Below the pieces are notes generated by a model. That model had not been told where the DNA came from. It was given only the letters and a program-made list of their open reading frames with translations, and did not search any database. Shown here piece after piece: positions 31,753-36,881 of a DNA stretch of 64,000 bases; the stretch's first letter is position 1, and the number at the start of each line of letters is the position of its first letter. The position numbers and the translations under genes are program-made. Source of the stretch: Terriglobales bacterium (GTDB lineage Bacteria > Acidobacteriota > Terriglobia > Terriglobales > Acidobacteriaceae). The stretch lies in the NCBI GenBank assembly GCA_035651655.1, contig DASRFG010000006.1, positions 62,001-126,000 of the forward strand, written 5' to 3'.

Positions 31753-33693
31753 ATGCAGATTCCGAAACCTAAGTGTTGGACGGCGGTAGTCGCTGCCTTG
31801 GTCCTGAGCATTACTGGCTGCCAGAGCGCTAAGAAGCCAATGGCTGTGGCGCCGGCGGAGCCTGCCCCACCCACGCTGACCCCAAAATCCGCCAAGGTAG
31901 CCAGAACCAACAAGTCCACAAAGGCAGTCAAAGCAGAATCACAACGGCCCAGAATTGAGGAAGAACCAAAACAGCAATCGCAATCCGATGCAATCGACAA
32001 TCTGGTTGCCGCAGCCGACAAACAATATGAGGCAGGGCAAGCACAGTATTCCGCTGGCCGCACCGACGCGGCAAAAAGCAATTTCGACCGTGCCTTTGAT
32101 CTGCTCGCCGGAGCCCCCACTGGGGCGGGTTCCGATCCACGAGTTCAAAACGAGTTCGACAAAATCGTTGACGGAGTGAATAGCCTTGAACTTACAGGGC
32201 TGAAGCAGGCCGATGCGGTCCCAGAGCAGCAAAAGTCCGAACCTGCGCCCATTGACGAAGCCAACGAGGTTACATTTCCGGTTGATCCGAACATAAAGGC
32301 CAAAGCCGAAGCCGAGGTCCGCAAGACCCATTCCGACCTGCCTCTTATGCTCAACGATACCGTCGCCAGTTACATTAATTACTACTCCACTCGGGGACGG
32401 GACGTTTTGGAGCGCGCTCTCACGCGCGCGGGTCTGTACCAGGACATGATCTCTCGCGTTTTGAAAGAGGAAGGCGTTCCTCAGGACTTAATTTACCTGG
32501 CCGAAGCAGAGTCGGGATTTCGTCCCTTGGCCCTCTCGCGTGCGGGCGCACGCGGGATGTGGCAGTTCATTTCCGCTCGCGCTCGCGGATATGGCCTAAG
32601 GCGTGACGCCTGGGTTGACGAGCGCCAGGATCCGGAGAAATCAACCCGGGCTGCTGCCCGTCACCTGAAGGATCTTTATAACCAGTTCGGCGACTGGTAC
32701 TTGGCAATGGCTGCCTACAACTCGGGTCCGCTGACGGTGCAGCATGCCGTCAGGCGCACTGGCTATGCTGATTTCTGGCAGCTCTATCGGCGTGGCGTGC
32801 TGCCCAAAGAGACGCGGAATTACGTTCCCATCATCTTGGCGGTCACCATTATGGCCAAGAATCCCGCCCAGTACGGTTTGGACGAAATCATTCCCGACAA
32901 ACCTCTGGAAGTGGACCGGCTGACAATTGATTATCCCGTGGATCTTCGCCTGGTGGCACAGTGCGTGGACTCTACCCTGCAGAACCTGCAGGAGCTCAAT
33001 CCCAGTTTGTTGCGGACGGTCAGCCCGAAGCAGGGCGGATATGAACTCCATCTACCTCTCGGAACCGCCGACAAGTATCAAGCCGCTATCGCTGCCATAC
33101 CGCGCGACATGCGAGTGTGGTGGCGCTACCACAAGGTGGCCCCCGCGGATACGCTGAGCGGCATCGCTCGCAATTATCGGGTGACCAGCAAGGCGATTCT
33201 CGACGTCAATCATCTGCAAGCCGATGAGCTTAAAGCGGAAAGCAAGGTGATTATTCCAATTGCACCCGGACATCGCGTGCCGGGTGAAGAAGTTGTCTAT
33301 TCTCGCCACGGGACTCGTTACCGCGTCAGAAGGGGCGACACCATAGCCTCCATTGCCAGTGATTTCGGTGTTCCCGCCGAACGCATACGTCGCTGGAATC
33401 GGTTACGCGGCGACCGTGTTCGGTCCGGACGACTGCTGGTCATTCATTTGCCGGTTTCACCTGGGCAGGAGATCGCGCCATCCCGCACAAAATCGTCCAA
33501 ATCAAAGTCCGCCAGCAAGATACGAACTGTGAGCTCGAGTGCTCGGGTGCTCCATAAAGTCCAACGCGGCGAAACCCTCTACAGCATCGCAAGCACCTAC
33601 AACACCACGGTTGAGGCACTTCGGCGCGACAACCACAAAGTGGCCTCCAACCTTCGCGCTGGCGACGTGCTGGTTATAAACCAATCGCGTTAA
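31753..33693 (+). CDS. mltD: MltD-like lytic transglycosylase lipoprotein with three LysM
   Basis: 646 residues. The lipobox ITGC (Cys23) marks an outer-membrane lipoprotein. An N-terminal helical spacer of about 200 residues (AIDNLVAAADKQYEAGQAQY region) comes before the SLT domain, with VPQDLIYLAEAESGFRPLA (catalytic Glu253) and RGMWQFI, AMAAYNSGP and TRNYVPIILA. Three LysM modules follow: near 445-490 (KVAPADTLSGIARNYRVTS), 505-550 (YRVRRGDTIASIASDFGV) and 597-645 (HKVQRGETLYSIASTYNTT), which bind peptidoglycan. The enzyme cuts glycan strands to 1,6-anhydroMurNAc ends. Confidence 0.93.
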   Translation: MQIPKPKCWTAVVAALVLSITGCQSAKKPMAVAPAEPAPPTLTPKSAKVARTNKSTKAVKAESQRPRIEEEPKQQSQSDAIDNLVAAADKQYEAGQAQYSAGRTDAAKSNFDRAFDLLAGAPTGAGSDPRVQNEFDKIVDGVNSLELTGLKQADAVPEQQKSEPAPIDEANEVTFPVDPNIKAKAEAEVRKTHSDLPLMLNDTVASYINYYSTRGRDVLERALTRAGLYQDMISRVLKEEGVPQDLIYLAEAESGFRPLALSRAGARGMWQFISARARGYGLRRDAWVDERQDPEKSTRAAARHLKDLYNQFGDWYLAMAAYNSGPLTVQHAVRRTGYADFWQLYRRGVLPKETRNYVPIILAVTIMAKNPAQYGLDEIIPDKPLEVDRLTIDYPVDLRLVAQCVDSTLQNLQELNPSLLRTVSPKQGGYELHLPLGTADKYQAAIAAIPRDMRVWWRYHKVAPADTLSGIARNYRVTSKAILDVNHLQADELKAESKVIIPIAPGHRVPGEEVVYSRHGTRYRVRRGDTIASIASDFGVPAERIRRWNRLRGDRVRSGRLLVIHLPVSPGQEIAPSRTKSSKSKSASKIRTVSSSARVLHKVQRGETLYSIASTYNTTVEALRRDNHKVASNLRAGDVLVINQSR

Positions 33694-33813
33694 GCCACCA
33701 ACCGCCACCCCAAATTTGCGCAGTCTTCACTTGCAGACGCTGCCGCTCCGGCGGGTGTAATATTCTTGGGCGCGCAACGCTTGCAGCATGTGTCCTGTCA
33801 CTTGAAATCGTTG

Positions 33814-33822
33814 TGCTATAAT
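33814..33822 (+). promoter_or_regulatory. Extended -10 promoter for the histone-like gene
   Basis: TGC-TATAAT, an extended -10 with a perfect hexamer at 33817-33822 and no clear -35. The start point would be near 33829, giving a leader of about 140 nt to the ATG at 33972. Confidence 0.55.
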
Positions 33823-33971
33823 CGCGCGCCATTTGCGGGACCGTGGAGCAGGGGCAAGCTTTTTCGTATGTTGAATTGATCTTGGGCAATACGCAGCAGC
33901 GTAGGTCTGGCAATTCTTTTATTTTTTGCAAAATTGAGTCTCGATCAGAGACCGGAGAGATCGGAGGCAAC

Positions 33972-34424
33972 ATGCTATCGGACGATGTGACGTTGTACGG
34001 GCGTGATGACGATATGGACGAATTCGGCGACACCGGTTCGTATGGCGAATCTCTGGAAGAAGATTACGAAGAGGAAGAGGAAGAAGAAGAGGAACCAGGT
34101 GGATCGTCTGTATCCACTGGTTCAATGCCATCCCAACCGGCGAGCGATATCGAATCCGGAGGCGGAGGACGTGGCTCCGGTGGCGGTGGCGGCGGAGCAC
34201 GTAAGGCACCGGCCAGAAAGTCTGCCCCCAAGAAGGCCGCCAAGAAACAGAGCTCCGCGCGAAAATCCACTCGTAGCCGTTCCACTGCGCGCAAAGGGAG
34301 GGCGGCCAAAGCTCGCGGCAAGAAGCGTGGCGGGAAAAAAGCCGCTAAGAAATCCAGCTCGCGAAAGGGTAAGCGCTCCAGTGCGCGCAAACGGAAGCCC
34401 GCGCGCGGCAAACGCCGGCGCTAA
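33972..34424 (+). CDS. Histone H1-like protein with acidic head and basic tail
   Basis: 150 residues from the ATG at 33972, with GGAGG 4 nt ahead; a longer frame from 33843 has no such site. Residues 1-41 are strongly acidic and end in nine Glu in a row (33-41). A Ser/Gly-rich hinge (42-76) includes GGGG runs, and 77-150 are almost wholly Lys, Arg, Ala and Ser (ARKSAPKKAAKKQ, KGKRSSARKRKPARGKRRR). The tail resembles eukaryotic H1 C-termini and bacterial H1-like proteins (Hc1, BpH1). DNA binding is inferred from composition. Whether the acidic head masks the tail is open. Confidence 0.85.
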   Translation: MLSDDVTLYGRDDDMDEFGDTGSYGESLEEDYEEEEEEEEEPGGSSVSTGSMPSQPASDIESGGGGRGSGGGGGGARKAPARKSAPKKAAKKQSSARKSTRSRSTARKGRAAKARGKKRGGKKAAKKSSSRKGKRSSARKRKPARGKRRR

Positions 34425-34442: not shown

Positions 34443-34475
34443 CGGCGGGCTGCCGACGTCTCCAGCAGCCCGCCG
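34443..34475. terminator. Strong hairpin between convergent genes
   Basis: Perfect 11-bp inverted repeat CGGCGGGCTGC/GCAGCCCGCCG with an 11-nt loop, between the histone-like gene (ends 34424) and the OmpA-like gene (ends 34509). A short AATTTATTT follows on the + strand. Likely a bidirectional terminator. Confidence 0.8.
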
Positions 34476-36662: not shown

Positions 36663-36881
36663 CTATTTCTTCCGTTCAACTGCCGCCAGACATCGTCCGT
36701 AGAGCTCGAGTAGATGGGTGGCGTAGTCTTCCGCCTTAGAAACCGTGTTTCCGCCGAATCCCGCCCCCGGGGAACCAGTCTTGCCGTAACTGGTTGTCAT
36801 GGCTATGAACTTCATCATGTCAAGGGCGATATCTTCATTGCGGCGGGTACCAATAGGTAAGTTGAGCGATTCATTTCCCAT
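36663..36881 (-). CDS. Small hypothetical protein
   Basis: 72 residues with a strong ribosome site (GAGGAGGCAATC before the ATG), so it is likely translated. It is soluble and partly helical (NEDIALDMMKFIAMTT; KAEDYATHLLELYGRCLAAVE), with a Gly/Ser loop between (SYGKTGSPGAGFGG). I do not recognise the family. It lies alone between the OmpA-like gene and yqeY. Confidence 0.75.
   Translation of the reverse strand: MGNESLNLPIGTRRNEDIALDMMKFIAMTTSYGKTGSPGAGFGGNTVSKAEDYATHLLELYGRCLAAVERKK

Follow-up and report, generated by a model that had tools for sequence, protein, structure and literature searches.

One gene in the window, the 64,000-nucleotide stretch of Terriglobales DNA analysed here, encodes a chain in which an acidic head and a Lys/Arg-rich tail are joined by a hinge. 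Judged from the sequences of its relatives, it is a real gene, single-copy where found, under selection and kept across a large Acidobacteriota family. At roughly even odds, we consider the product to be a disordered, putative nucleic-acid-binding protein in which an H1-like tail would be joined to a docking motif and to an acidic brake tethered in the same chain.

A bipolar and probably disordered chain

The gene for the bipolar protein spans positions 33972..34424 of the forward strand (150 aa, stop included; the translation was checked and is exact). The acidic head (residues 1–41; 33972..34094, +) has a net charge of -20, carries the motif TLYGRDDDMDEFGD...YGESLEEDYE9 and ends in nine Glu residues. 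It is followed by a Ser/Pro/Gly hinge assigned from the sequence (residues 42–76; 34095..34199, +) and by a basic tail (residues 77–150; 34200..34421, +) of net charge +37. The 74 residues of this tail include 20 K and 17 R and not a single D or E, and they give a sub-cut-off match to the HC2 family. A preliminary description of this DNA had given the same anatomy, an acidic 41-residue head with nine Glu, a Gly-rich hinge and a 74-residue Lys/Arg tail, and this anatomy, the coordinates and the translation were all confirmed. It had also called for an analysis of the charge pattern, and here the segregation score of 0.171 lies above all 2000 shuffles (mean 0.025, maximum 0.065).

The charge layout is kept in the relatives, which are 104–254 residues long. 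All counts over 68 or 66 sequences given below include the window's own sequence. The median charge over the 68 sequences is -22 for the acidic part and +35.5 for the basic part, and D and E are absent from the last 60 residues in 61 of them. Analysis with AlphaFold2 on a 19-row alignment returned an unfolded chain (mean pLDDT 53.5, pTM 0.13) with a single 4-residue helix of low confidence and no folded domain.

Conservation of the head

A homologue search for the acidic head had likewise been proposed, and the head proved to be more conserved than the chain as a whole, with a mean column identity of 61% in the head alignment vs. 40% over the whole chain for the same 19 rows. The head motif TLYxRDDEMDE(F/Y)G...Y is conserved with synonymous sites near saturation. 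Among 66 aligned heads, L8 is found in 62, an aromatic residue at Y9 in 65, R11 in 59, D13 in 61, G19 in 56 and an aromatic residue at Y24 in 59. The pairwise medians for the head are 0.77 for pS and 0.18 for pN, with pS above pN in 2139 of the 2145 pairs; identity is 0.84 at codon positions 1+2 vs. 0.48 at position 3. In six of the 2145 pairs pN equals or exceeds pS, and the six such pairs printed all include row L135, the head of which is probably misaligned. The Glu codons are mixed (488 GAA, 301 GAG), so a DNA repeat does not account for the Glu run. Among the relatives the tail varies in sequence and length but retains its charge.

The conserved Leu, aromatic, Arg and Gly positions suggest a motif for binding a partner, a feature overlooked in the preliminary description. 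A pure charge brake would have no need for conserved Leu, Tyr, Arg and Gly positions, which counts against the head being a simple brake.

Two head types within one family

A protein search gave matches in 20 of 61 genomes, the window's own genome included. With a profile of the type-1 head (A2), one match per genome was obtained in 70 of 120 family genomes, again including the own genome, where a second match to the profile was absent at E ≤ 10. All but two of these 70 matches could be read, as L132 and L138 gave no frame, and the remaining 68 read as a protein with an acidic head, a hinge and a basic tail. A diverged type-2 head (profile A3) was identified in 34 of the 120 family genomes and in none of the 70 type-1 genomes; the absence of genomes with both types assumes that the same 120 genomes entered both searches, and the handles agree among those listed. 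Some of the genomes used to build profile A3 were also in the set that it was subsequently used to search. One sequence with N in its head (L020/G035) was excluded from the alignments A1 and A2, and G452 was excluded from A3 for its poor head. Sixteen of the 120 family genomes match neither profile, yet G035 and G452 at least do carry the gene. The G452 protein (L106) has kept its tail, and its head has a charge of only -2 over 60 residues.

Of 396 phylum genomes searched, 8 gave a type-1 and 21 a type-2 head. All 29 belong to the family, so neither type was seen beyond it; this search could miss diverged heads such as that of G051. A contig scan with one low-complexity pattern gave at least 15 loci and, among the matches listed, all are Acidobacteriota MAGs (Acidobacteriaceae, Acidobacteriales, Terriglobia), a result from a single pattern that says nothing on absence outside Acidobacteriota.

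Comparison of the two head types with hhalign gave a probability of 78.7% and an E-value of 1.7e-5, values that are inflated by the shared acidity. The orthology therefore rests on synteny, the promoter and the transglycosylase tree. Inspection by eye also showed that several tails of the type-2 relatives L091–L109 share a non-repetitive STKRGxPLAVKKA-like stretch inside their K/R repeats, possibly a second motif.

Start codon and promoter

The Shine-Dalgarno sequence GGAGG lies at 33963..33967 (+). GGAGG was found ahead of the nearest ATG upstream of the match in 18 of 19 sequences (own included, counted by eye), and in the larger set GGAGG was found in 66 and AGGAGG in 58 of the 68 sequences. 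Since the starts of the larger set were chosen by a script among the in-frame starts by their Shine-Dalgarno match, the count of 66 is partly by construction. In the two rows without GGAGG (L087 and L145) the script-chosen start falls inside the head, and they were excluded from the head counts, leaving 66 of the 68. An in-frame GTG upstream at 33843 was considered as a start and rejected, as it is not conserved and the Shine-Dalgarno sequence sits at the ATG. Homologues with a start that leaves out the acidic region, which the preliminary description had named as evidence against it, were not what we found: the relatives use the same ATG with GGAGG kept, and the one exception to a conserved acidic head is G452, which has the tail behind a head of nearly neutral charge. 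We regard the ATG start as sound from these comparisons.

An extended -10 promoter, TGCTATAAT, lies at 33814..33822 (+) with TATAAT at 33817–33822, and a -35-like CTGTCA is found at 33795..33800 (+) with a 16-nt spacer (10/12 matches; shuffles, mean 0.2). The form conserved in the relatives, TGNTATAAT, occurs within 160 nt upstream in 51 of the 68 sequences, and the promoter TGTTGCTATAATCCGCGC is also present upstream of 7 of 17 genes with other heads. The distance from the end of the -10 to the ATG is 149 nt in the window, so the leader of about 140 nt claimed together with the promoter in the preliminary description is correct here. Across the sequences this distance runs from 60 to 149 nt (median 106), so the long leader itself is not conserved, and of that claim it is the promoter that holds among the relatives.

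The extended -10 sites in the own genome, counted with one pattern, number 16, and a reversed-pattern control also gave 16. The case for the promoter's strength therefore rests on its conservation and not on this count. Four of the 16 sites lie shortly before genes for tRNA-Glu, tRNA-Pro, tRNA-Leu and tRNA-His, and others precede frames that we take, by eye, to be infC, gyrA, hslV, argS and yebC. The sites before tRNA genes and before infC- and gyrA-like frames indicate that this promoter shape is used by core genes. The promoter of the bipolar gene is a conserved, sigma-70-like extended -10 promoter.

The -10 is followed by an all-G/C stretch, CGCGCGCC (33823-33830, +), which is G/C-rich in the relatives too: across 51 sequences, G and C make up 97.5% of the 8 nt after the -10, and positions 1 and 7 are always C. 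A stringent-response signature was considered for this G/C-only stretch and rejected, as the own-genome sites before tRNA genes lack it.

Synteny and descent

The orthology anchor is the syntenic neighbour, an MltD-like lytic transglycosylase with three LysM stretches (31753..33693, +). The bipolar gene follows a LysM lytic transglycosylase in 18 of 20 neighbourhoods, the exceptions being G027 and G053. The transglycosylase was also sought in 26 genomes, six from other families and 20 from the family (those listed out of 50 in which the type-1 profile had no match), and 24 of the 26 loci were examined, G001 and G463 being omitted for their weak transglycosylase matches. A K/R-tailed frame follows the transglycosylase at 18 of the 24 loci, which divide into 18 family loci (14 with the frame) and six loci of other families (four with the frame). 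One of the 14 family loci, G035, is the type-1 gene with N in its head. Seventeen of the 18 K/R-tailed frames could be read fully, and 16 of these have a charge of -13 or lower in their first 60 residues, the other being G452 with -2. Of the six loci without such a frame, those of G008, G019 and G052 run into a contig end, and those of G030, G032 and G053 have none there; elsewhere, however, a type-2 head is present in G032 and a weak relative in G053. The type-2 head gene follows the transglycosylase in 12 of 13 examined type-2 genomes.

In a transglycosylase tree of 40 rows, the 18 type-1 rows lie on one side of one branch (support 93/84), and 13 family type-2 rows group with two rows without the gene there and one cut row (support 100/100). 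The six other-family rows stand apart (96/93), and four of these six transglycosylase genes precede a bipolar protein. The bipolar gene thus follows the tree of the neighbouring transglycosylase. The simplest history would be that of a single bipolar gene, inherited vertically while its head slowly changed.

Comparison with known families

The preliminary description had called the protein histone-like, and this holds for the composition of the tail, which resembles H1 and HC2, but not for family membership: the match to Pfam HC2 (PF07382) reached 13.6 bits (E 0.075) vs. a cut-off of 40. HC2 was the sole Pfam match at E ≤ 1. Among the NCBIfam models there was no match above a curated cut-off, only one at chance level (E 0.99), and a sequence search of the PDB gave no meaningful relative (best E 0.5). 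AlphaFold2 (pTM 0.13) gave no folded histone domain. KPAA repeats are absent from the 150 residues, and neither AlphaFold2 nor Pfam gave a helical or phasin N-terminal domain, features that mark AlgP and PhaF. The CarD_CdnL_TRCF match in Pfam and the RGRP AT-hooks, as expected of a CarD- or HMGA-like protein, were absent as well. Assignment to HC2, AlgP/PhaF or CarD was therefore rejected.

Chlamydia HC2 shares the Lys/Arg/Ala-rich, H1-like composition of the tail, and the bipolar protein differs from it by the conserved acidic head and Gly hinge placed in front. Like the bipolar protein, AlgP and PhaF of Pseudomonas have a distinct N-terminal part and a C-terminal half that is disordered and strongly basic; according to the available text, the N-terminal part of AlgP is predicted to be helical, its tail has KPAA repeats and the N-terminal part of PhaF binds PHA granules, whereas an acidic disordered motif is found here (PMC9239181). 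AlgP (+55, H1-like) is described there as associating with polyphosphate granules and as required for their spacing, and its H1-like tail as binding DNA and likewise required for the spacing (PMC9239181). A bacterial precedent for a strong acidic segment next to a basic DNA-binding tail is CarD of Myxococcus xanthus, for which the accessible part of the report gives an acidic stretch, some 50 residues long, adjoining a basic and disordered tail, and which stays functional with this tail replaced by H1 or HMGA (PMC8156234). Unlike the bipolar protein, CarD contains RGRP AT-hooks as well as a folded domain that binds RNA polymerase (PMC8156234, as far as its available text goes). Two further systems serve as mechanistic models only, in that a basic surface is contested between nucleic acid and a disordered acidic segment, or is paired with such a segment: in Hfq the acidic tip holds back the binding of nucleic acid and keeps DNA from aggregating (available text of PMC5606850), and prothymosin alpha and H1 pair while both stay disordered (available text of PMC7661507). 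Hfq has a folded Sm core, and prothymosin and H1 are separate chains; we claim no homology of the bipolar protein to either.

The literature matches listed, mainly open-access, contained no description of such a protein in Acidobacteriota. All features by which we delimit the proposed family are present, namely a single copy, an acidic head, a hinge, a basic tail and a GGAGG start, the last partly through the choice of start. In its predicted anatomy the protein is H1-like, and it appears to be a family of its own, defined by its head.

Proposed mechanism and alternatives

The protein would be well expressed, and its Lys/Arg tail would use its charge to coat DNA (or RNA). Transient pairing of the Glu-rich head with the tail of the same or a neighbouring chain would make this binding weaker, faster and more exchangeable, and the TLYxRDDEMDE(F/Y)G...Y part of the head would contact a specific partner protein. 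Masking of the tail by fold-back and phase separation, the two roles put forward in the preliminary description, are likewise hypothetical. The target of the tail could equally be RNA or polyphosphate and not only DNA. Against this reading, G452 is nearly without an acidic head yet has the tail, and 16 of 120 family genomes match neither head profile. A bolder version, which we hold to be rather doubtful, would make the protein a self-chaperoned bacterial linker histone, with an H1-like tail and a prothymosin-like acidic chaperone in one disordered chain, class-wide in soil bacteria, and a docking motif through which chromosome packing would be linked to a core machine such as the ribosome or RNA polymerase.

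A specific partner would leave just the kind of conserved, non-acidic motif seen in the head, and an unlikely alternative is a CarD-like adaptor that docks with its head on RNA polymerase or another factor and is kept on DNA by its basic tail, bulk packing not being its role. The fast-drifting, interchangeable tail and fixed head would fit the tail swap of CarD, as given in the available text of PMC8156234. The weak HC2 hit as the sole Pfam match at E ≤ 1, with no match to CarD_CdnL_TRCF, argues against such an adaptor, as does the lack of a folded docking domain in the AlphaFold2 model. Block-charged disordered chains are prone to condensation, which speaks for a protein that binds polyphosphate granules or ribosomal RNA with its tail and forms or spaces condensates. 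AlgP at polyphosphate granules offers a precedent for this (PMC9239181, available text), but both the KPAA repeats and the helical N-terminal domain are missing here, and we find such an organiser of granules or RNA improbable.

A cell-envelope role together with the MltD-like transglycosylase draws on the shared position, the neighbour being present in 18 of 20 neighbourhoods and a K/R-tailed frame following at 18 of 24 further loci. Vertical descent suffices to explain this position, and the acidic N-terminus has no hydrophobic stretch in its sequence. The bipolar gene moreover has its own promoter and is found away from MltD in G027 and G032, with a weak relative in G053, so that we regard the envelope role as highly improbable. 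Low-complexity composition and open antisense and alternative frames would be expected also of a chance frame or repeat artefact. This reading is already refuted, as the promoter, the Shine-Dalgarno site and the head are all conserved, pS is the higher value in all but six of the 2145 pairs, and there is one copy in each of 70 genomes.

If the reading as a disordered binding protein with a tethered brake is true, a common, little-studied soil phylum would have its own chromosome- or RNA-binding protein, with binding tuned within one chain. It would also provide a natural model, 104–254 residues long, of the way in which blocks of opposite charge govern condensation and the binding of nucleic acids. 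The two head types and the nearly head-less relative G452 are ready natural comparisons for testing the role of the head.

Further elements around the gene

A second conserved upstream element, GGTGTAATAT(G), lies at 33754..33763 (+) and is present in 18 of the 68 sequences. In the 16 sequences that have both, it is found 44–71 nt before the main promoter, and it may serve as an operator or as an additional promoter. Its consensus GGTGTAATATGCA has no match in the own genome with up to one mismatch, the own copy differing more. The sequence TGYTATAATCSCG was considered as a regulon signal and rejected, as it occurs only twice in the own genome and a longer pattern with one mismatch allowed gave two sites vs. 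one in the control; the second TGYTATAATCSCG site precedes a frame that by eye resembles a MerR-type regulator. A pyrimidine-rich stretch like GTTGTCTTTTTATTTC is seen in the leaders of 18 of 51 sequences with a loose pattern, for example in L071, L067 and L078. A strong hairpin (34443..34475; -25.6 kcal/mol, z -3.84) lies between the bipolar gene and a convergent OmpA-family gene, with a T-run on its minus side. Finally, a 72-residue protein with no Pfam family, encoded on the minus strand at 36663-36881, is seen again close to the bipolar gene in 7 of the 20 neighbourhoods.
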